DNA of 50,872 bases from a virus. The notes below the pieces were generated by a model. The model had not been told where the DNA came from, did no database searches, and saw only the letters and a list, made by a program, of their open reading frames with translations. The stretch lies in IMG/VR virus record IMGVR_UViG_3300048817_000011, positions 1-50,872 of that record; one strand, 5' to 3'. This document shows positions 3,999 through 48,831 of this stretch, in pieces (the stretch's first letter is position 1; the number at the start of each line of letters is the position of its first letter). The position numbers were made by a program, and so were the translations under genes.

Positions 3999-4074
3999 TC
4001 GGGATTAGCTCAACTGGCAGAGCGCGCGGTTCTGGACCGCGAGGTTCGTGGTTCGATCCCACGATCCCGAGCCA
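3999..4074 (+). tRNA. tRNA-Gln (anticodon CTG)
   Basis: A complete cloverleaf can be drawn: acceptor stem TCGGGAT/ATCCCGA (3999-4005 with 4064-4070), a D arm with GCTC/GAGC, anticodon stem CGCGG/CCGCG with loop TTCTGGA (4030-4036, anticodon CTG at 4032-4034), and a T arm containing GGTTCGATCCC. The discriminator G and an encoded CCA end follow. It reads CAG. It lies one base after the large-terminase stop and 18 bases before the next start, so it must be processed from the structural-gene transcript. Confidence 0.95.
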
Positions 4075-7439: not shown

Positions 7440-8912
7440 ATGGACATCAAGGAAATGATCGAGGCGCGCGACGCTCTCGTCGCTGAACTTGACGCGCTGG
7501 AAGCCCCTTGGCTGGTCGAGGATGTCGAAGCCCGCTCCGTGCCTAGTGACGAAGATGTCACCAAGGCCGAGGAGTTGCGTGGACGCATCACCGAGTCAGA
7601 CGAGGCCATCCTTCGTGTTGACGCCGACATGCGCCGGCGTGCCGCTGTGGACGAGGCTCGCACTCGTCTGCTTGTCCCTGTTGGTGACGGCGTGGTTCGC
7701 AGTGAGGCCCGGACGTACAGTCCCGTCAATCCGCAGAACTCGTTTTTCGCTGACAAGTGCTGGGAGGCTCTGCCTTCCGACCCTCACTACCGTGACGCTC
7801 TGGCTCGCCTTGAGCAGCACGGCAAAGAGGTAGTCCGCGACTCCATCCACGACTCTGAGGAGCGCGCCCGCGTGGCTCGTTCGCTCAAGGAAGGTTACCG
7901 TAAGGACGAGTCTCGCGCTCGCATGGCGGCATCCGACTTGGAGTCCCGTTCGATGGAACTCCGCGCTGGCATGGACACGACTGCCGGTTCCGGTGGGTCG
8001 TTCGTGACGCCGCAGTATTTCGTTTCGGACTACGCGCCTTACCGCCAGTACGAGCGGGTGTTTGCCGACCTGACCAACAAGCAGGATTTGCCGGACTACG
8101 GCATGACGATCTTCCTGCCTCACGTCACCGGTCCCGCCGCTGTCGCCACTCAGGCCACGCAGAACCAGGGTGTCTCCGAGACTGACCCGACCGCCGGCTA
8201 CTTGTCGGCAAGCCTCGTCACCGAGGCCGGCCAGGTCACCATCTCGCAGCAGCTTCTGGACCGCGCCGGTCCTGGCATCCAGTTTGACAAGATTGTGTTT
8301 GACCAGTTGCAGCGGAACTACGCGCAGCAGATCGACGCGGCTGTCCTGGTTGCCGCTCTGGCTTCGGCCGGTGCTGTGACCAACTCCAACACGGGAGCCT
8401 CTGGAACCAACGTGGTCCAGTCTCTCATGTCGGACGTTGGCAAGGCCATTCAGGCGATAGAGACAACGCAGGGTACGGTGCTTGCACCCACTCACGTTTT
8501 CACCACGCCGACCGAGTGGGCTTTCCTTGAGACTCAGCTTGACTCGACCGGTCGCCCAATCGTGGCCGCGGGTTACCAGGGTCTTTACAACGCCGCGGCT
8601 GCGGCATCTGGCAAGGAGAACGTCGCCACTTCCGGTGACACCAACTTCCAGTTGCTTTCGCTGCCGGTGTTCAAGGATGCCAACATCCCCGTTTCCGGTG
8701 CGAACACTCAGGTGATCGTGGCGGACATGGCAGAGGTTTGGTTTTGGGAAGGCCCGCTGGTGCCTCGCACCATCCCGCAGACCTTCGCACAGAACCTCTC
8801 GGTCCTGTTGCAGCTTTACAGCTACAACGCCGTCATCGTGCGTTACCCCTCGGCCGTTCAGGCTGTGACGGGCGCTCGGTACCCCGCAACGCCTAGCTGG
8901 TTGCAGTCGTAA
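7440..8912 (+). CDS. Major capsid protein 1 (HK97 fold, full length)
   Basis: The 490-residue protein has an N-terminal helical, charged region (about 1-90) that looks like a scaffold or delta domain, then an HK97-type body starting at SGGSFVTPQYF near residue 185. Diagnostic segments include VSETDPTAGYLSASL, TISQQLLDR and PVSGANTQVIVA. It should form the capsid shell after cleavage by the upstream protease. A clear paralogue (10360-11502) aligns from NSFF at residue 100 onward. An AAAAGGAAG sequence lies just before the ATG. Confidence 0.93.
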   Translation: MDIKEMIEARDALVAELDALEAPWLVEDVEARSVPSDEDVTKAEELRGRITESDEAILRVDADMRRRAAVDEARTRLLVPVGDGVVRSEARTYSPVNPQNSFFADKCWEALPSDPHYRDALARLEQHGKEVVRDSIHDSEERARVARSLKEGYRKDESRARMAASDLESRSMELRAGMDTTAGSGGSFVTPQYFVSDYAPYRQYERVFADLTNKQDLPDYGMTIFLPHVTGPAAVATQATQNQGVSETDPTAGYLSASLVTEAGQVTISQQLLDRAGPGIQFDKIVFDQLQRNYAQQIDAAVLVAALASAGAVTNSNTGASGTNVVQSLMSDVGKAIQAIETTQGTVLAPTHVFTTPTEWAFLETQLDSTGRPIVAAGYQGLYNAAAAASGKENVATSGDTNFQLLSLPVFKDANIPVSGANTQVIVADMAEVWFWEGPLVPRTIPQTFAQNLSVLLQLYSYNAVIVRYPSAVQAVTGARYPATPSWLQS

Positions 8913-10130: not shown

Positions 10131-10373
10131 ATGAACACCATTCACAACCCAACACGCCGAGGCATTCACATTCCCGTTCTCAACGGAACGGTGTGGGCCG
10201 GGCAGACGGTTGAAGTAACCAGGGAGCAGGCGCTGGCGCTGGAGCATTCGTCTATCCTGGTCGTCCATGTCGATGAACCGCCGAAGCGGAAGTACACGCC
10301 GCGAGGCAGCAAGATTGCCGAAACGACTTCCGCGCCGGAAGTAGAAACCCGAAACGGAGATGCGGATGACTGA
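10131..10373 (+). CDS. Small protein upstream of MCP2
   Basis: An 80-residue ORF begins after GAGGAGCAAG. The first half is a short beta-like segment (IHIPVLNGTVWAGQTVEV), the second half is basic and then acidic and probably disordered. I recognise no family. Its last codons overlap the MCP2 start, so it may couple MCP2 translation. Confidence 0.6.
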   Translation: MNTIHNPTRRGIHIPVLNGTVWAGQTVEVTREQALALEHSSILVVHVDEPPKRKYTPRGSKIAETTSAPEVETRNGDADD

Positions 10374-11502
10374 CGTGCTGGTGACTAACGAGCCTCGGGT
10401 TTACGAGGAGCACAGTCCAAACTCTTTCTATCTTGACCAGGCGCGCGCAGCGATGCCGGGTCAGATGGGTCACCGTGACGCCGTTGAGCGGCTGTTCCGG
10501 TACTCTCAGGAACTTGAGTGGGAGATTGCCGTTCGGTCGAAGGAAGGTCAGCGCGCCGAGCGGTCAATCCGCCGGGGCATGGGCGAGAACCGTGCAGGAA
10601 TGTCCAGCATTGTGTCTACCTCTGGCGGATCGTTTGTTACGCCTCAGTGGCTTACGGAGTTGTATGCGCCATTCCGTTCGGCGGACCGGGCGTTTATCAA
10701 CCAGTGCCGAATGCTTCCGATTCCGGCGGTTGGAATGCAGTTCAACATTCCGTCCTTTGCTTCAACGGCCGCAGCGGGCGCACAGACGGACAACGATGGT
10801 GTATCAGACACCGACCCTACCGGGCTTGACCTTACGGTGACGCTCACCAATCAAGCCGGTGAGGTCAGCATATCGCAGCAGTTGTTTGACCAAGGTGGGG
10901 ACACTGGGGCGACCATTGACGCCATCGTCCAAGCGCAGATCAACTCGCAACTGAACGCTGCCATTGACGCCTATGCCATCACCGCGGCAATCGCCGCTGG
11001 CTCGGCGGTGACAGACGCCGCCGCCATCACCATCCCGCTGTGGTTCGCTGACCTCTCAGCGGCACGGGAGAAGCTGACAGACACCGCTGGTACTCGTCTT
11101 GCTGGTACGCACCTGTTCACCACGTCTGATCTTGCTGGCTACTTCACCAAGCAGGTGGACAACCAGAACCGGCCCATCTTCCTGCCCGACGCTGATGCTC
11201 TGATGGCGGCGAACGATAATCCGAAGTACGATGGATTCCTTGGCCTCGCACTTCCGGGTGGTTTGCTCTGGTACGCCGACGACAACATTCCGGCGAGTGG
11301 CGCAAACACTCAGCTAATCGTGGTTCGACCTTCGGAAATCCTGGCGTTTGAGTCTGACCCATTCGTGTTCGCATACCCGGAGACACAGGCGGAACACCTG
11401 TCTGTTGTGGTCGGTCTGCGGAAGTACGTTGCCGTTCTGCCTCGTTACGCCAAGGCCACTGCCACCATCGGTGGAGCATCGTACCCGCTCACGTTGGTCT
11501 GA
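10360..11502 (+). CDS. Major capsid protein 2 (HK97 fold, lacks N-terminal domain)
   Basis: This 380-residue protein is a clear paralogue of MCP1. Shared segments include PNSFY near residue 20 (MCP1 NSFF at 100), GGSFVTPQW, VSDTDPTGLDL, VSISQQLFDQ and PASGANTQLIVV. It lacks about the first 80 residues of MCP1, the presumed scaffold region. In T4, a separate vertex protein paralogous to the main capsid protein forms pentamers; a similar vertex or minor shell role is plausible. A second ATG at 10366 is an alternative start. Confidence 0.9.
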   Translation: MRMTDVLVTNEPRVYEEHSPNSFYLDQARAAMPGQMGHRDAVERLFRYSQELEWEIAVRSKEGQRAERSIRRGMGENRAGMSSIVSTSGGSFVTPQWLTELYAPFRSADRAFINQCRMLPIPAVGMQFNIPSFASTAAAGAQTDNDGVSDTDPTGLDLTVTLTNQAGEVSISQQLFDQGGDTGATIDAIVQAQINSQLNAAIDAYAITAAIAAGSAVTDAAAITIPLWFADLSAAREKLTDTAGTRLAGTHLFTTSDLAGYFTKQVDNQNRPIFLPDADALMAANDNPKYDGFLGLALPGGLLWYADDNIPASGANTQLIVVRPSEILAFESDPFVFAYPETQAEHLSVVVGLRKYVAVLPRYAKATATIGGASYPLTLV

Positions 11503-28326: not shown

Positions 28327-28572
28327 ATGCGGTTGAAAAAGTGGACGCCAGTTGAAGTCATCTGGACGGATGCCCACGGTGGTGATGCCGGTTGGGAAGT
28401 AGAAGGCAGTCCGCACAAGCCACGCCTCATCCGCAGTGTTGGCATGTTGGTCCGCAATAACCGTGCCGGCGTAACGCTGGTGTTATCGCGTGACAAGGCA
28501 TCTGACACCGTTGGCGCATACGTGTTTATCCCGGCCGCAAACGTGGTCGGAGAAATCAGGGAGCTGTCGTGA
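28327..28572 (+). CDS. Hypothetical 81-residue protein
   Basis: The ORF follows a GAAGGGAAG site. It has a beta-type pattern with WTPVEVIWTDAHGGDAGWEV and no catalytic motif. Similar small proteins with an early W-x-D-A segment are common in actinobacteriophage genomes, function unknown. The final 4 bases overlap the next gene (GTGA). Confidence 0.6.
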   Translation: MRLKKWTPVEVIWTDAHGGDAGWEVEGSPHKPRLIRSVGMLVRNNRAGVTLVLSRDKASDTVGAYVFIPAANVVGEIRELS

Positions 28573-29084
28573 CCATTCAAGCAGGTGACCTAGTATTTTG
28601 TCACTCAAAGGGGCTGGTAGGTAAGGGTATTCGCCTTGCCGAGTGGCTTCGGTTCCGCAAGGGTGACAAGTGGAATCACGTCGCCATTATCGACCGTCCG
28701 GTGGTCGATGGGCGACCGGATTACGACTGGTATGTGATCCAGGCCGAGGCCCACGGCGTCACCAACACCGGCAAGCTGTCCACAATCGCACCCGGTGGCG
28801 ACTACATCGTTCTGCCGTTGCCGAGAGCCGCCGATGCTGCTAAGGTCATCGAGTTTGCCACGGCACAAGTCGGCCGGCGGTATGGTTTCGTGACCATCGT
28901 CAGCATACTTGTCACGTTACTGTCGCCAAAGTTTTTCAACGTGATGCTGCCGAACACCTGGATTTGTAGCGCCGTTGCCGCTGAATCCTTGCGGTACGCC
29001 GGGTGGTATCATTCATGGGATGACGTTTATCAAGTCAACCCATCCGAGTTTTGGGAGTCCGTCTGGACAGGAGCGCATGCTTAA
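28569..29084 (+). CDS. YiiX/NlpC-like permuted papain-fold peptidase
   Basis: The 171-residue protein starts with GTG. MTIQAGDLVFCHSKG places a Cys early, KWNHVAIIDR supplies a His, and WICSAVAAESLRYAG a second Cys near 138. The order (G-D-L, H-V-A, then C-S...E) matches YiiX-like circularly permuted NlpC/P60 relatives that cleave peptide or acyl bonds. A wall or lipid target is possible. It follows the membrane protein gene, so lysis accessory is one option. Confidence 0.65.
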   Translation: MTIQAGDLVFCHSKGLVGKGIRLAEWLRFRKGDKWNHVAIIDRPVVDGRPDYDWYVIQAEAHGVTNTGKLSTIAPGGDYIVLPLPRAADAAKVIEFATAQVGRRYGFVTIVSILVTLLSPKFFNVMLPNTWICSAVAAESLRYAGWYHSWDDVYQVNPSEFWESVWTGAHA

Positions 29085-43457: not shown

Positions 43458-44108
43458 ATGACCAACTCACTGAAAACACTCATCGGAACGGTAGTAATCA
43501 TTTTCGCCGCCCTCGTTGCTTTCGCTCTCCCAGCAGGAGCCGCGAACAGCGGCATCCGCATCCAGACGCCTTGGCGCACTCTCGCAGTCGTCAGTCCCGC
43601 AGGCCTCTGGCAGACGTATGGCAACAACAGCGAGGGCGACTGTGTTCTCGCAGCCGTCGGCAACCTCGCCACCGAGTGGAGCCCAGCGGTTGGCAACATC
43701 GCCAACACGGCAGCGACCGTCCAGCAGTGGTGGCAAGCCATGAACGAGCCAGTCTACGGCCTCAACCCTGAGTACGTGCTCTATTACTGGGAGACACACC
43801 CCATCAACGGCTTCACCATCGCCGGGTTCCTCCAGCAGACACCGAACCAAGCGAACGTCGAGCAGGACGTCCTCCACTCGCAAGGCGCTTTCCTCACGGT
43901 CTACCTCGGAGACGAGCTCTACTACCACGAGCAGCCCAACTGGAGCACCTCCAACGACAGCGCGCCAGACCCCAATCTCAGCCACGAGGTGCTGGTCACC
44001 GGCTTCAATGCCTTCGGAGTCACGCTGGTCTCATGGGGTCAAACGTACACCGCCACTTGGAGCTGGGTCGCCGCTCACTCAGTCGACCTCGACGAAGTCA
44101 CCCGCTGA
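43458..44108 (+). CDS. Secreted papain/C39-like cysteine peptidase candidate
   Basis: The 216-residue protein has a clear signal peptide: a basic start, a hydrophobic core (IGTVVIIFAALVAFALP) and a cleavage-type AGAAN near 27-30. The mature part has GDCVLAAVGN with a likely nucleophile Cys62 and SHEVLVTGFNAFGVTLVSWG with His near 176, matching the C39/papain-like order. It could act outside the membrane on peptides or wall. Its codon use (many CTC, ACC and GAG) looks different from its neighbours, suggesting recent acquisition. It lies next to the amidoligase module. Confidence 0.6.
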   Translation: MTNSLKTLIGTVVIIFAALVAFALPAGAANSGIRIQTPWRTLAVVSPAGLWQTYGNNSEGDCVLAAVGNLATEWSPAVGNIANTAATVQQWWQAMNEPVYGLNPEYVLYYWETHPINGFTIAGFLQQTPNQANVEQDVLHSQGAFLTVYLGDELYYHEQPNWSTSNDSAPDPNLSHEVLVTGFNAFGVTLVSWGQTYTATWSWVAAHSVDLDEVTR

Positions 44109-44226
44109 TCGCGCAACACAAACGAAAGGCCTGGCCGGCATCGCAACCGCTCACGCGGTGGGGGAGGAGGTCGGTTGTGCAGATTGTTGTTGCAAGCAGT
44201 TCCGCCAAGCAAGAGGAGATGAGAAA

Positions 44227-45192
44227 ATGCCAAGCACGATCGAGCAGGGAATGCGAGTTTGCAACCGCTGCCACGAATCCCTGCCCGCCACCGATGTTCA
44301 CTTCTACCGCCGTGTTTCCGGCACGCAAGCTGGGCAACTTATGCTCACCTGCCGGGGATGCCGCCGCCGTGCCGCCGCTGGACGTACAAGCAGCCGCCGC
44401 ACCACTTCGCCCCGCAGCCGCCGTTTCGGTTTTGAGATGGAGTTCATTGGCTCGATGTCAGCCGTTGCCCGTGCGTTGCAGCTTGAAGGAATCGACGCCC
44501 GTGCGACTGGCTACACTCACCGTGTGACACGCACATGGAAGATTGTCCCCGATGCCAGCGTTCGCGGCGGCGGCGAGCTTGTTTCTCCTCCGATTCGCAT
44601 GGAGCAGGCAGCCGAACTGATGCCCAAAGTACAGCGTGCGATGGCAGCCGCCGGCGCAACTGTGAATCGCTCCACCGGGCTTCACGTTCACCACGAAGTC
44701 ACCGACTTGGATGTGCGTGCGTTCGGTCGCATGTTCCGGTTCTGGTACAACTGCCAAGACGCGCTGAACACGCTTGTCAGCCCCAGCCGCAACTCCAATG
44801 GATTCTGCCACCCGCTTGACCGCTTAATCGTTGAGCAGTGCGAGACACTTTCCGCCCTCGATCGTGAGACAACCCGCCGGGCGTTCAGTTACACCAGTCG
44901 GTACATGACTCTGAACGTTTGCAGCTTTCCCAGGTACGGCACGATTGAAGTCCGCCAGCATCAGGGCACGCTCAACGCTGAGAAGATCATTAACTGGACG
45001 AAGTTGACTCAGGCGATGCTCACATTCGCCAAGGGCACCGAGTCCATGATCCGAGAGTCATCGTCACTCACCAACATGCTTGACACTCTCGTTGAGCACG
45101 GTGGGCTTGACAGCGAAGTTGCAAGCTACTGGCACAGTCGGGCCGTCGAGTTGGAGGACAACAGCCGCAACAATGTGGAGGTGTTCGCATGA
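44227..45192 (+). CDS. Amidoligase (GCS/GS-like) with N-terminal zinc ribbon
   Basis: The 321-residue protein starts after GAGGAGATGAGAAA. Residues 10-46 form a zinc ribbon (Cys12, 15, 42, 45). The rest matches phage/bacterial amidoligases: RRFGFEMEFIG (66-75, the G-x-E-x-E signature), WKIVPDASV (104-112), GGELVSPP (115-122), GLHVHHE (151-157) and GTIEVRQHQGT (238-248). These enzymes couple carboxylates and amines with ATP in the same broad superfamily as glutamine synthetase and Pup ligase PafA. The substrate is unknown. It is coupled to the next gene and sits in one operon with the glutamine amidotransferase. Confidence 0.85.
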   Translation: MPSTIEQGMRVCNRCHESLPATDVHFYRRVSGTQAGQLMLTCRGCRRRAAAGRTSSRRTTSPRSRRFGFEMEFIGSMSAVARALQLEGIDARATGYTHRVTRTWKIVPDASVRGGGELVSPPIRMEQAAELMPKVQRAMAAAGATVNRSTGLHVHHEVTDLDVRAFGRMFRFWYNCQDALNTLVSPSRNSNGFCHPLDRLIVEQCETLSALDRETTRRAFSYTSRYMTLNVCSFPRYGTIEVRQHQGTLNAEKIINWTKLTQAMLTFAKGTESMIRESSSLTNMLDTLVEHGGLDSEVASYWHSRAVELEDNSRNNVEVFA

Positions 45193-45455
45193 CAATAACC
45201 GCCATCTGGCACAATGGGACGATCACCACAGGCGAAACGTGGCGGGAGTTGGAAGACAATATCCGCCGGGCGCAGTGGACTAGCTTCAAGTCCCGACAGG
45301 AGTTCCGGGAGGAGATGCGACTGCGGGCGAAGACTTGGAGCGGGCTAAAGCCCCAGCCCATGTACCCGCAAACGTCGCAAGGATTCCTACGCAGTCTCGA
45401 AACATCAGGCATGTTCCTAATCACAGTCGAAACAGAATCAGGAGAAATGAAATGA
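45189..45455 (+). CDS. Hypothetical protein between amidoligase and amidotransferase
   Basis: An 88-residue protein with N-terminal strands (ITAIWHNGTITTGETWREL) and charged helices. It overlaps both neighbours by ATGA, so it is probably made in equal amounts with them and may be a partner or peptide substrate carrier. No family recognised. Confidence 0.6.
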   Translation: MTITAIWHNGTITTGETWRELEDNIRRAQWTSFKSRQEFREEMRLRAKTWSGLKPQPMYPQTSQGFLRSLETSGMFLITVETESGEMK

Positions 45456-46375
45456 CCACCGCTACAGCCAAGCCCCGCATCCTCGTACTTGAGGCACTGT
45501 CGGGAAGTTCTGCCGCAATCACGGCAGCGGGCGGGATAGCCGTCAAAGTTTCGCCCAGCGCATCGGACCAAGTGTGCGAGTTGCTGGACAATGCGGTCAT
45601 CAATGGCGTACTGCTCACAGGGGGCGGCGACGTTGACCCACGACTGTACGGGCGACGCGCTCATAAAAAGGTGTATGGCGTGTCCGAGACGCGTGACCTC
45701 GTTGAGCGGGTCGTGTTGGAAATCGCCAAGCGTCGCAACTGGCCCGTGTTCGGCATCTGCCGGGGCATCCAGATAATGAACGTGCAAGCGGGCGGAACAC
45801 TGACTCAGCACATCGGCGGTCACAGCGGCACCGAGCACCCTGTCACTATCACTGGTCCCACGATGTTGGGGGCGGTAGGCGCAAGCACAGCGCACGTCAT
45901 CAGCTTGCACCATCAGTGCGTGCGTGACGTTGCCGATGGGTTCGTAGTCGCCTCCCGAGCGGGTGACGGCACGCCCGAGGCAATCGAGTCACTGGACGGT
46001 CGTTGCTTGGCTGTGCAGTTTCATCCCGAGATGGATGCTCAGGCAGATTACGCCCGAGGAATGTTCCGCTGGCTCGTTGAGGAAGCGGCGCACCGAGCAG
46101 GCGCACACGTTGAAGCCGGGCCGCAGGCTGAGAAGCACGCCAACGTCTACGTGAAGTCTCTCGGGAAGACTTACTACGGTAAGTCTGCCAAGGGTGCCGC
46201 ACGCAGCCAGCGGAAGTCGGACTCAGCCAAGTCCGGACCGGTCAGCACGTACTTTTTCTGCGGAGGATGTGGCATCACGTTTGACGAGAAGGAGGACTAC
46301 GCGGACCACATGCAAGTGCTCCACAACGTCGAGACAAACGTGGATGTTGTCACCGGATCGGGTGCAGTCAAATGA
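45452..46375 (+). CDS. Class I glutamine amidotransferase (C26/PuuD-like) with C-terminal zinc finger
   Basis: The 307-residue product has the C26 pattern GVLLTGGGDVDPRLYG (52-67), nucleophile Cys103 in FGICRGIQIMN, and His191/Glu193 in VQFHPE, so the triad is intact. Such enzymes hydrolyse gamma-glutamyl bonds. An extra C-terminal region carries a C2H2 zinc finger (Cys270, Cys273, His286, His291), unusual for this family. Pairing with an amidoligase suggests a make-and-break system for glutamyl/peptide bonds. Confidence 0.9.
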   Translation: MTTATAKPRILVLEALSGSSAAITAAGGIAVKVSPSASDQVCELLDNAVINGVLLTGGGDVDPRLYGRRAHKKVYGVSETRDLVERVVLEIAKRRNWPVFGICRGIQIMNVQAGGTLTQHIGGHSGTEHPVTITGPTMLGAVGASTAHVISLHHQCVRDVADGFVVASRAGDGTPEAIESLDGRCLAVQFHPEMDAQADYARGMFRWLVEEAAHRAGAHVEAGPQAEKHANVYVKSLGKTYYGKSAKGAARSQRKSDSAKSGPVSTYFFCGGCGITFDEKEDYADHMQVLHNVETNVDVVTGSGAVK

Positions 46376-46473
46376 GTTGCCCACAATGCACGGAGGGAAT
46401 CATGCACACTCACACTCGCCGGACTGATTGGCGTGCCACGCACGTAAAAGTTTCACTGGACAAGTGCAAGTGA
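46372..46473 (+). CDS. 33-residue Cys/His microprotein
   Basis: MSCPQCTEGIMHTHTRRTDW and 13 more residues. Cys-x2-Cys and three His could bind zinc. It overlaps the amidotransferase stop by ATGA and contains a promoter near its end. Confidence 0.45.
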   Translation: MSCPQCTEGIMHTHTRRTDWRATHVKVSLDKCK

Positions 46474-46485
46474 CACTGTTAGACT
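46457..46485 (+). promoter_or_regulatory. Promoter for the AlpA-like regulator gene
   Basis: TGGACA (46457-46462), a 17-base spacer and TAGACT (46480-46485). Transcription would start near 46492 and make a leader of about 124 bases with a possible pseudoknot. Confidence 0.55.
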
Positions 46486-46503
46486 TGCGCTTGTAACACC
46501 ATT

Positions 46504-46556
46504 TCGTATCGTGCAACCCGTGGCACCGGGGGATACGAGGTCCGTGGCAGGTTGCA
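46504..46556 (+). other. Possible H-type pseudoknot in a 5' leader
   Basis: TCGTATC (46504-46510) can pair with GATACGA (46532-46538), and TGCAACC (46512-46518) with GGTTGCA (46550-46556). The four arms alternate as a, b, a', b', a pseudoknot order. It sits in the leader between the promoter at 46457 and the start at 46616. Confidence 0.4.
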
Positions 46557-46615
46557 TATCCGCACTTCGATTGCGCGGCACGGAACTGGCAACAATCAAT
46601 GAAAGGAACGGCAAC

Positions 46616-46993
46616 ATGCGAAGCACCTACGGATTCACCGGAGCAGACGTACTCGCCACGAAGTTGAAGCCCACCGATCTGGTGGGCTTGCGAGAGGTCG
46701 CCAAGATGATCGGGCGCAGCTATCCAGTTGCGTACAGCCGTGCCACAACGGACGTGACGTTTCCAGCGCCCGCTCTGATCATTCACATGGGCACGAGAGT
46801 CGTCCGACAGTACAGGCGAGCAGACATTGAGCGGTGGGGCATCGCCCATGCTCTGATTCGTGTTCCGGAAGCGTCCCAAACGCTGCCTACCGCTCCCAAA
46901 GTGCTTTCAAGCACAGACAGACTCACTGCCGTCGCTGAACTGCTAGGCGTAGGCACAGCCAAGCTGGAAGCAGCAATGGCGTTGCTGTCATGA
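46616..46993 (+). CDS. AlpA/excisionase-like DNA-binding protein
   Basis: From ATG 46616 (AAAGGAA upstream) the 125-residue product has LVGLREVAKMIGRS followed by FPAPALI and RVVRQYRRADIERWG, the winged-helix pattern of AlpA, MerR-like and excisionase proteins. A longer in-frame start at 46511 is unlikely because it lies in the structured leader. Probably a transcription regulator; no integrase was found. Confidence 0.65.
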   Translation: MRSTYGFTGADVLATKLKPTDLVGLREVAKMIGRSYPVAYSRATTDVTFPAPALIIHMGTRVVRQYRRADIERWGIAHALIRVPEASQTLPTAPKVLSSTDRLTAVAELLGVGTAKLEAAMALLS

Positions 46994-47211
46994 GTGACCG
47001 GGAGGAGGCAGCGGTGTTGCGTGCTCTGTTGAGTCGTGGCGCTCAGATGCAACGGGTGACAGTGCGTCATCCGTTCCAGCCGGCAGTGCGCGGATATGAG
47101 TTGTACTTGAACCAGCTTGCCTTGCCTGTGGTGCTCGACGGAAAACACGCCGATGCCATCAGCAGTCTTGCCGGCGTCACCAGCATTTCGGAGAGAGAGG
47201 ACAATCTGTAA
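46990..47211 (+). CDS. Hypothetical 73-residue protein
   Basis: ATGA overlap with the regulator. A helical start (REEAAVLRALLSRGAQMQRV) and beta-type middle. No family recognised. Confidence 0.5.
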   Translation: MSDREEAAVLRALLSRGAQMQRVTVRHPFQPAVRGYELYLNQLALPVVLDGKHADAISSLAGVTSISEREDNL

Positions 47212-47351
47212 TGAAGCGGTGCAACGGAAGTAACCGTCTGATAGCAGGCGATGCCGAGAAGTGCAACTGTCCGAACTGTGGCGCGGAGGTCACAGTACGA
47301 AACACAAGCCCGCATTTTGGACGGGTCGTTATTCATGGGGTGGAGAAATGA
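47211..47351 (+). CDS. 46-residue zinc-ribbon microprotein
   Basis: The TAATG junction and the ATGA at its end link it to both neighbours. One CNCPNCG group plus an earlier Cys could hold zinc. Function unknown. Confidence 0.45.
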   Translation: MKRCNGSNRLIAGDAEKCNCPNCGAEVTVRNTSPHFGRVVIHGVEK

Positions 47352-47566
47352 AAGTTGAAGTGGAGTCCCGTTACGGTGTAACGCACACCATCACGCCACA
47401 TCCGGCAGCACCCATTCTGTCCGCTTTCATTCGTGACCCCGGTTTGGTGTCCGTGACATACGCATACCAAAACGGTGATTCCATCGTTCACACAATCATC
47501 CGAGAGGAGGAAAATGCCGACCCTGATGCGCCAAGCAATGATTGCCTTGTCATTGGACCCGAATAA
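47348..47566 (+). CDS. Hypothetical 72-residue protein
   Basis: From ATG 47348 the product is beta-like (VEVESRYGVTHTITPHPAAP) with an acidic end. It overlaps the next gene by 53 bases. No recognised family. Confidence 0.5.
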   Translation: MKVEVESRYGVTHTITPHPAAPILSAFIRDPGLVSVTYAYQNGDSIVHTIIREEENADPDAPSNDCLVIGPE

Positions 47567-48236
47567 GACGCCAACGCAAGTCGCCGCCGAAGTCGGTTGT
47601 TCACGCACACTCGCCACGAAAGCGTGGAAGGCACTTGGTCTTGACCGTGACCACCCACGCCGCCGTCCTGGCTACCATACATTCCGTGCGCAGATTTGGG
47701 ATGAGCCACTGGATGCACCGGTTGCAGCGATTGCCGAGGAGATTGGATGCTCAGTCTCGTACGTGCGTCGTATTCAAGCGCGCCGTGTTGCGGAAGCCCG
47801 ACGCCGCCAGCAGCGGCAGGAATCAATGCGGGAGCGGGAGATGCGTGCCACCGAGCGGGATCGAATCCGCCGGCGTGGTATACAAGCGCCACAACCGGAT
47901 TGGATTTGCAGTGACACGCAGGGCTGTCAGAATCAGGAATGTATGCACTGGTTCGATCCGCCACGCAATCTGTTGGACTGCGACTGCCGAACGTGCATGT
48001 ACTTGCGGACAGCGTATGAGGAGGATGCCGAGGAATCATTGCCACGACGAGGCGGATCATTCGTTCCGCCGCAGTACATGGTGGATGACTATGTGGCAGC
48101 AGGTCATTGGGACGCTGTGGAGCAGTCGTTACGAGATGTACCGGACGGACAGGTCCGTGTTACACTGCCGTCATTGGCAACACGCAACCAAATGCGGGAG
48201 ACACTTGATCTCGCGCCAATCGAGGAGGGAACATGA
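47514..48236 (+). CDS. Protein with two helix-turn-helix motifs and a Cys cluster
   Basis: From ATG 47514 after GAGGAGGAAA the product is 240 residues. Residues about 20-45 (TPTQVAAEVGCSRTLATKAW) and 68-90 (PVAAIAEEIGCSVSYVRRIQ) are helix-turn-helix motifs. An Arg/Glu-rich helix follows, then a Cys-rich region (CSDTQGC, CDCRTC), a probable zinc site. It is likely a DNA-binding regulator. The overlap with the previous gene is large but the ribosome site is strong. Confidence 0.65.
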   Translation: MPTLMRQAMIALSLDPNKTPTQVAAEVGCSRTLATKAWKALGLDRDHPRRRPGYHTFRAQIWDEPLDAPVAAIAEEIGCSVSYVRRIQARRVAEARRRQQRQESMREREMRATERDRIRRRGIQAPQPDWICSDTQGCQNQECMHWFDPPRNLLDCDCRTCMYLRTAYEEDAEESLPRRGGSFVPPQYMVDDYVAAGHWDAVEQSLRDVPDGQVRVTLPSLATRNQMRETLDLAPIEEGT

Positions 48237-48424
48237 CACAGCCACATGCCGTAAGAGGATTCGGGCAGGAGCCGCAGTTGCGGAAGTCCATTTCCGCCAT
48301 CCTGTTTCTGCTTGTGACATCACCGCTCTGGATCGGACTGTTGCTCTGGAACGATGCCAAGCGGATCAGTCGTCGGCTTGTACGGATCGACATGGAGACA
48401 AGGCAGAGTGGCTACGAATGGTGA
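48233..48424 (+). CDS. Single-span membrane protein
   Basis: A 63-residue ORF with one hydrophobic segment (SAILFLLVTSPLWIGLLLW) between charged ends. ATGA overlap upstream and a 7-base overlap with the GGCT-like gene downstream. Function unknown. Confidence 0.55.
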   Translation: MTQPHAVRGFGQEPQLRKSISAILFLLVTSPLWIGLLLWNDAKRISRRLVRIDMETRQSGYEW

Positions 48425-48831
48425 AACTCTTTGCCTATGGCACATTGCGGCCAGGCGGTTCGTTGAAGCGCAGTCTGCTGAGTGCGTACCTTGAGCCAGC
48501 CGAGCACGCAATGGCGCATGGACATCTGTTCCATCATGCTGGTAGCACAGACTTGAATCCGTCTTACCCGGTTGCGGACTTTTCCATCATGGACGGTTCG
48601 GTGATCCACGGCGATGTGTTGACGGTGGACGTTGACAACTTCCAAGTCCAACGCACCACCGACATGGAAGTTCGTGCCGGATACCAGACAATCGAAACGG
48701 AGGTAACGCTGGACAGTGGCGAGAAGATCAAAGCCATTGCGTTTCACTACCCGTACAAGGAACGGGGTGCCCGAATCATTGACGGCGATTGGATGCCGTT
48801 TGAGTTAGTCGAAAGCAGGTGGTTCCGTTGA
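48418..48831 (+). CDS. Gamma-glutamylcyclotransferase-like (AIG2 fold) protein
   Basis: The 137-residue protein begins MVKLFAYGTLRPGGSLK, the hallmark Y-G-S/T-L loop of GGCT/AIG2-like enzymes. VIHGDVLTV and DMEVRAGY supply the domain core and the expected catalytic Glu84. These enzymes cyclise gamma-glutamyl groups to release 5-oxoproline. It lies about 2 kb downstream of the amidoligase and amidotransferase and completes a set seen together with amidoligases elsewhere. Confidence 0.85.
   Translation: MVKLFAYGTLRPGGSLKRSLLSAYLEPAEHAMAHGHLFHHAGSTDLNPSYPVADFSIMDGSVIHGDVLTVDVDNFQVQRTTDMEVRAGYQTIETEVTLDSGEKIKAIAFHYPYKERGARIIDGDWMPFELVESRWFR

Follow-up and report, generated by a model that had tools for sequence, protein, structure and literature searches.

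Sets of phage genes that combine an amidoligase with a gamma-glutamyl cyclotransferase (GGCT) and a glutamine amidotransferase (GATase) are already known. One of them is the putative peptidoglycan-modification module of podoviruses (PSA-HP1/RIO-1, LUZ24-like phages and PA11; PMC5498523, PMC11945000, PMC3890496), whose proposed role is modification of host peptidoglycan against superinfection or in preparation for lysis (PMC5498523, PMC11945000). The peptidoglycan substrate is put forward as a hypothesis in these two papers, and no test of it was found. Another set is present in the Arthrobacter phages Kovu, Ottawa and Laroye (PMC5513430). The window analysed here, the whole 50,872-base stretch of the IMG/VR virus record IMGVR_UViG_3300048817_000011, carries on its + strand, near the right end, genes for an amidoligase, an 88-residue protein, a Peptidase_C26 hydrolase and a GGCT-like protein. 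What is new in this cassette is the conserved 88-residue protein adjoining the ligase.

In the window, as in the podovirus module, a single region holds genes for Amidoligase_2, for GGCT and for a glutamine-amidotransferase-like protein, and a C26-type protein also occurs in CW02 and T2S1. Unlike the module, it has no class-II GATase, and neither a COOH-NH2 ligase (PF14395 type) nor an ATP-grasp gene was found in it with profiles built from CW02 and T2S1. Additions relative to the module are the 88-residue protein and a zinc-type part in each of two enzymes, a module in the ligase and a finger in the C26 protein. The window set is a reduced variant of the podovirus module in style, and is not filed as a member because the two ligases of that module are missing. 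The Arthrobacter phages are the nearest relatives among named phages, both of the window ligase (36–37% identity) and of the GGCT protein (28–31%). In these phages GGCT, ligase and class-II GATase_6 genes are consecutive, with GGCT directly before and GATase_6 directly after the ligase. The small protein is also present; its annotation is only 'hypothetical' or a feature that spans the ends of the record. The Arthrobacter-phage set differs from that of the window in that its GATase is of class II (PF13522) rather than C26, the N-terminus of its ligase is helix-turn-helix (HTH)-like rather than zinc-binding, and the small protein comes after the GATase.

Two other systems invite comparison. As in PuuA/PuuD, a ligase of the glutamine synthetase (GS) fold is paired with a C26 hydrolase, in the window a putative one, of gamma-glutamyl amides; unlike PuuA/PuuD, the window shows no oxidoreductase step among the genes scanned, and it has a small partner and zinc modules. 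As in Pup-PafA-Dop, a GS-fold ligase is encoded with a small protein, and PafA and Dop are among the structure matches of the ligase. Unlike Pup, however, the window small protein is folded and has no conserved C-terminal Gly-Gly-Gln/Glu, and the putative eraser is C26/GGCT, not a Dop paralogue.

Recurrence of the gene set and its small protein

The ligase, small protein, GATase-like and GGCT genes form a recurrent phage set. The comparison loci, numbered with an L, are mostly metagenomic contigs and several are nearly identical; locus groups rather than single loci were counted where near-identity mattered. Functional statements throughout are drawn from families, folds and co-occurrence. IMG/VR was scanned with an alignment of the C26 protein, a query that contained no amidoligase sequence. 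An amidoligase was found within about 8 kb in 21 of the 26 viral C26 loci retrieved, compared with none of the 13 loci outside the C26 group in the same scan (11 GMP-synthase-like and 2 C26-like on short contigs; Fisher p = 1e-6). The order ligase, small protein and C26 with a C-terminal zinc finger is repeated in the seven contigs that resemble the window most (L006, L007, L008, L009, L012, L013 and L014), with GGCT placed within this order in L008, so that the ligase homologues do not consistently stand alone. A GGCT gene is nearby in L006, L007 and L008. In L010 and L011, where the ligase is followed by C26, no small protein was recognised.

The ligase loci that were retrieved with ligase sequence fall into 38 groups, of which 19 have GGCT, 19 the small protein and 8 GATase_6. 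In phage C75C1 (L152:4693-5589), downstream of the amidoligase, a class-II-GATase-like region is fused to GGCT in a gene annotated as a cyclotransferase only (local GATase_6 profile, E = 1.7e-7; Pfam GATase_4, E = 9e-5, slightly under the cut-off; GGACT, E = 2.7e-21). A viral-contig scan with the window ligase alone returned nothing, and clustering of the neighbouring genes gave ordinary phage genes and no additional conserved partner. Ligase loci in the genome collection were mostly on contigs of metagenome-assembled genomes of mixed phyla, and no functional context was gained from them. A first-pass annotation of the window had placed an amidoligase, a glutamine amidotransferase, a GGCT-like enzyme and a secreted peptidase-like gene in one region. 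The first three stand as a recurrent phage set (also PMC3890496, PMC5513430), whereas the secreted gene falls outside it. That gene list was also incomplete: it lacked the 88-residue protein and the genes in the stretch of about 2 kb between C26 and GGCT, and it overlooked the four-cysteine module at the N-terminus of the ligase and the C2H2 finger at the C-terminus of the C26 protein.

The gene for the 88-residue protein (45189..45455, + strand) shares an ATGA stop/start overlap with the ligase gene (45189..45192, + strand), which is identical in its 4 nucleotides (nt) in L006, and another with the C26 gene (45452..45455, + strand). Because such overlaps occur at both joints, the sequence points to translational coupling of the three genes. 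With the window copy as the query, homologues were first found in L006 and L007 (about 40% identity). A profile of the family then recognised about 55 loci, in which the gene is always on the ligase strand and in most cases follows the ligase by 0–120 nt or comes right behind GATase_6. The family has no Pfam model; of 29 members, 3 match PHROG_16392, a group of unknown function. Since the local profiles were iterated on the very loci that they count, the small-protein profile was also run, as an independent test, on annotated phages left out of its building. It detected an open frame spanning the record ends of Arthrobacter phage Kovu (E = 1e-21), in Porphyromonas phage018a a gene that overlaps that of the ligase (E = 1e-13), and in Bacillus phage 035JT001 the product gp42 (E = 5e-6); the copy in Arthrobacter phage Ottawa had been found before this test.

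With three of these small proteins as tblastn queries, 50,697 phage records were searched. The small protein was found in 30 records, which represent about three phage lineages and not 30 independent events, and all 30 also carry an amidoligase beside it. Twenty-nine of them are among the 136 records of the ligase search; the 30th, a short contig, has a ligase C-terminus adjoining the small gene. The carriers are Arthrobacter, Bacillus, Porphyromonas and faecal phages. The window's own small protein had no tblastn match among annotated phages, and viral-contig scans with two single small proteins returned only the queries themselves.

An AlphaFold2 model of the small protein (predicted local distance difference test, pLDDT, 91.9) has the topology strand-strand-helix-helix-helix-strand. 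Foldseek gave no match in the PDB (best E = 1.2), VIA-align reached at most Z 4.9, and the BFVD matches to the fold were uncharacterised phage proteins only. A ubiquitin/TGS-like beta-grasp, hinted at by the N-terminal sequence, was rejected on the predicted topology and the lack of a PDB match. A Pup-like tag was also rejected, as the protein is folded and its C-termini are not conserved in 29 sequences. For the same two reasons, a role as adaptor or as regulatory subunit is more probable for it than one as a tag. Co-occurrence and overlapping genes mark it as a dedicated partner of the ligase.

Amidoligase cassettes are widespread in phages of Actinobacteria, Firmicutes, Bacteroidota and Proteobacteria, and no tested substrate was found for them in the literature consulted. 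A small partner that has no Pfam model and occurs only with the ligase in the records tested offers a reason why lone ligases might look inactive. Such a partner also provides a handle for finding the acceptor.

The ligase and associated enzymes

The three enzyme genes proposed from the sequence are real, their products scoring above the Pfam cut-offs for PF12224, PF07722 and PF06094. The amidoligase (44227..45192, + strand; 321 residues), a GS-fold carboxylate-amine ligase whose ATG at 44227 is preceded by GAGGAG, matches Amidoligase_2 (PF12224) with E = 4.7e-30 and 105.7 bits (cut-off 22). A sequence search of the PDB with the ligase found no relative. An AlphaFold2 model built on 47 relatives (pLDDT 88.7) has YbdK as its top PDB structure match (Z 13.8, root-mean-square deviation 3.8, 225 residues). 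Glutamine synthetases come next (Z about 13), and the lists of matches also include GmaS, PafA and Dop. The predicted fold and the conserved catalytic Glu/His/Arg pattern are thus like those of the YbdK-type ligase/glutamine synthetase superfamily, although identity with YbdK is only 16%. The active-site residues have been retained rather than lost, and E70, E72, D109, E117, H153, H155, N230, E241 and R243 are invariant in 47 sequences. From their order and style of spacing rather than a superposition, E70/E72, E117, H153/H155 and E241/R243 presumably correspond to the ExE, Glu, HxH and ExR metal/ATP residues of glutamine synthetase. Fold and residues are consistent with a ligase that makes amide bonds with ATP.

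The N-terminus of the ligase is a putative four-cysteine zinc module (C12, C15, C42 and C45; 44260..44361, + strand). PHROG endonuclease VII family 1035 is matched by each of the four modules compared with it, those of the window, of L012, of L009 and of L077, a GGCT-linked ligase. Such a module is found on every C26-linked ligase with a readable N-terminus (window, L006–L009 and L011–L014, with a Cys/His variant in L007). Ligases of the GATase_6 clade have an HTH-like N-terminus instead (Pfam matches below cut-off), and other ligases begin with a GHDAK-type Cys-rich segment. Actinophage-type amidoligases with the HTH-like module are found in L046, L048, L050, L057, L002 and L003. Modules of the zinc and HTH types often bind nucleic acid but also bind proteins, and binding of either by the modules of the ligase and the C26 protein is put forward as a lead only. 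Genes resembling 3'-phosphoadenosine 5'-phosphosulfate (PAPS) reductase/ATP pyrophosphatase, with an SGGKDS motif, lie within 6 kb of the amidoligase in six locus groups (L094, L124 and similar contigs).

The class-I amidotransferase-like hydrolase of the Peptidase_C26 family (45452..46375, + strand; 307 residues) matches PF07722 with E = 1.8e-42 and 146 bits (cut-off 20.5), and its catalytic triad C103, H191 and E193 is invariant in 10 relatives. The closest solved structures are Lin1909, three chains named 'probable glutamine amidotransferase' and PuuD (E = 3.7e-17); the three chains are presumably the gamma-glutamylpolyamine hydrolase SpuA. The protein also matches the gamma-glutamyl-GABA (gamma-aminobutyric acid) hydrolase model and is closer to C26-type hydrolases, PuuD included, than to GMP-synthase-type glutaminases. 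At its C-terminus is a C2H2-type zinc finger (C270, C273, H286 and H291; 46259..46324, + strand; PF00096, E = 0.0045, under the curated cut-off), a pattern mostly kept at the same position in relatives.

The GGCT/AIG2-type gamma-glutamyl(amine) cyclotransferase (48418..48831, + strand; 137 residues) matches GGACT (PF06094) with E = 5.7e-11 and 43.5 bits (cut-off 22.8). Its YGTL motif is formed by Y7, G8, T9 and L10, and the candidate catalytic residue E84 is kept in the window, L002, L003 and L106. The protein matches 13 phage records, every one of them an Arthrobacter phage on the list of ligase matches. A tandem cyclotransferase, with two GGCT domains in one open frame, is encoded in the IMG/VR records behind L072, L099 and L107. 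With C26, class-II GATase and GGCT trading places next to the same ligase, the chemistry is probably confined to gamma-glutamyl or glutamine amides.

Possible reactions and acceptors

The cassette is probably a phage writer and eraser of gamma-glutamyl-type amide bonds, placing a reversible mark on an amine-bearing acceptor. This reading is favoured by the intact residues of the ligase, by its dedicated partner and by the two accompanying enzymes, whose families hydrolyse or cyclise gamma-glutamyl amides. At the expense of ATP, the GS-fold amidoligase would link the amine of an acceptor, recruited by the 88-residue protein and the zinc modules, to a carboxylate, which is most likely the gamma-carboxyl of glutamate. 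The ligase, through its zinc module, and the C26 protein, through its zinc finger, may be drawn to the same target. The C26 protein could then hydrolyse the gamma-glutamyl amide, as PuuD does, and the GGCT protein could release the gamma-glutamyl link as 5-oxoproline, so that the mark would be reversed or remodelled. Candidate acceptors are a cell-wall peptide, a protein, an amine metabolite or something bound to nucleic acid; a host wall peptide is tentatively taken as the single likeliest. Several observations weigh against a reversible mark. The window GGCT gene is 2 kb from the other cassette genes, and no GGCT gene was found beside the set in some relatives (e.g. L009, L013 and L014). E84 of the GGCT protein lies four residues before the conserved Gly, whereas the canonical Glu directly precedes it, and its placement is uncertain. 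Also, as a class-II GATase takes its place in other phages, the C26 protein might act as a glutaminase that supplies the ligase with ammonia.

In chemical terms, this supply of ammonia is the chief rival. Ammonia would be freed from glutamine by the C26 protein, or by GATase_6 in other phages, and the amidoligase would use it to amidate a carboxylate, e.g. in a wall peptide, with GGCT as a separate salvage enzyme. Class-I C26 and class-II GATase_6 do alternate beside the same ligase, their classical common reaction is glutamine hydrolysis, and MurT/GatD is a known pair of ligase and class-I GATase in wall amidation (PMC3267633). Nevertheless, such amidation is judged unlikely, as the protein groups in sequence with C26 hydrolases (PF07722, Lin1909, PuuD) and not with GMP-synthase-type glutaminases, GGCT, which makes no ammonia, is as frequent as the small protein among the locus groups, and no Mur ligase or wall gene is among the window genes scanned. 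Gamma-glutamylation of a polyamine or another amine as in PuuA/PuuD, shifting host amine pools, would agree with the pairing of a GS-fold ligase and a hydrolase that matches PuuD and the gamma-glutamyl-GABA hydrolase model. It is not considered probable, since the genes scanned include no oxidase or aldehyde dehydrogenase of the Puu route, and since a ligase with zinc and HTH modules and a small partner of its own would be an uncommon sort of metabolite enzyme.

The exchangeable ligase modules of nucleic-acid-binding type (endonuclease-VII-like zinc, HTH) and the C2H2-type finger of the C26 protein would suit a ligase and hydrolase whose target is a modified base or a protein bound to nucleic acid, with these parts or the small protein as guides. 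In L007 (2311-3773) a TET/JBP oxygenase (PF12851, E = 1.4e-19) and a P-loop nucleotide kinase (PF18751) are encoded directly upstream of the cassette. The window, however, has no TET/JBP, PF18751 kinase or C5 methylase, and elsewhere matches over cut-off are few (TET/JBP in 1 of 50 records searched, the kinase in 1 of 37, C5 methylase in 5 of 37), and modification directed at nucleic acid is distinctly improbable. DNA hypermodification in the window phage was rejected on the absence of these genes. It is a long shot that the ligase is directed to nucleic acid, or to a protein bound to it, by its small partner and by the zinc or HTH modules, and that phages across bacterial phyla thereby write and erase gamma-glutamyl amides on a base or on a DNA/RNA-bound protein; if true, this would be targeted modification of a kind distinct both from Pup and from known base hypermodification. 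Finally, the genes could be a loose collection of morons, brought together by phage mosaicism and working separately, as the unrelated genes between C26 and GGCT and the many ligase loci without one or more partners might suggest. The recurrent order, the 4-nt overlaps, the small protein accompanied by the ligase in every record that has it and an association common to phages of Actinobacteria, Firmicutes and Bacteroidota make this very improbable when set against a reversible gamma-glutamyl mark.

Surrounding genes and the phage

The region under discussion (43458-48831) runs from the start of its first gene to the end of its last, and the gap of about 2 kb between C26 and GGCT holds other genes, two of them HTH-like. 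The first gene, upstream of the ligase, encodes a putatively secreted, tentatively papain/C39-like protein of 216 residues (43458..44108, + strand). It has a hydrophobic N-terminus, a plausible Cys62...His176 pair and one match to a phage 'cysteine protease' (24% identity, E = 0.01), and no Pfam, NCBIfam, convincing PHROG or PDB sequence match was found. No homologue was present in about 125 related loci or in viral contigs. As no homologue was found near any related ligase, the secreted peptidase-like gene that the first-pass annotation had included is excluded from the cassette; it may encode an unrelated secreted phage protein. Between 42000 and 46000 the skew of G over C falls from about +0.1 to about 0 and that of A over T goes up, which may mark later insertion of the ligase-bearing block.

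The record is that of a tailed phage, with terminase, portal, capsid, tape-measure, DNA polymerase A and D5-type primase-helicase genes. The terminase is closest to that of Pontimonas phage phiPsal1 (45.6%), Streptomyces phages being next, and the DNA polymerase is closest to those of Micrococcus, Microbacterium and Arthrobacter phages; because of these relationships, an actinobacterial host is likely. Elsewhere in the window, positions 28569-29084 encode a permuted papain-like amidase resembling Peptidase_C92/YiiX (E = 1.4e-5, slightly under the curated cut-off). The major-head-protein family PHROG 2263 is matched by two separate genes, 7440-8912 and 10366-11502, and a lone tRNA-Gln (CUG) gene (3999-4074) lies between the terminase and portal genes.

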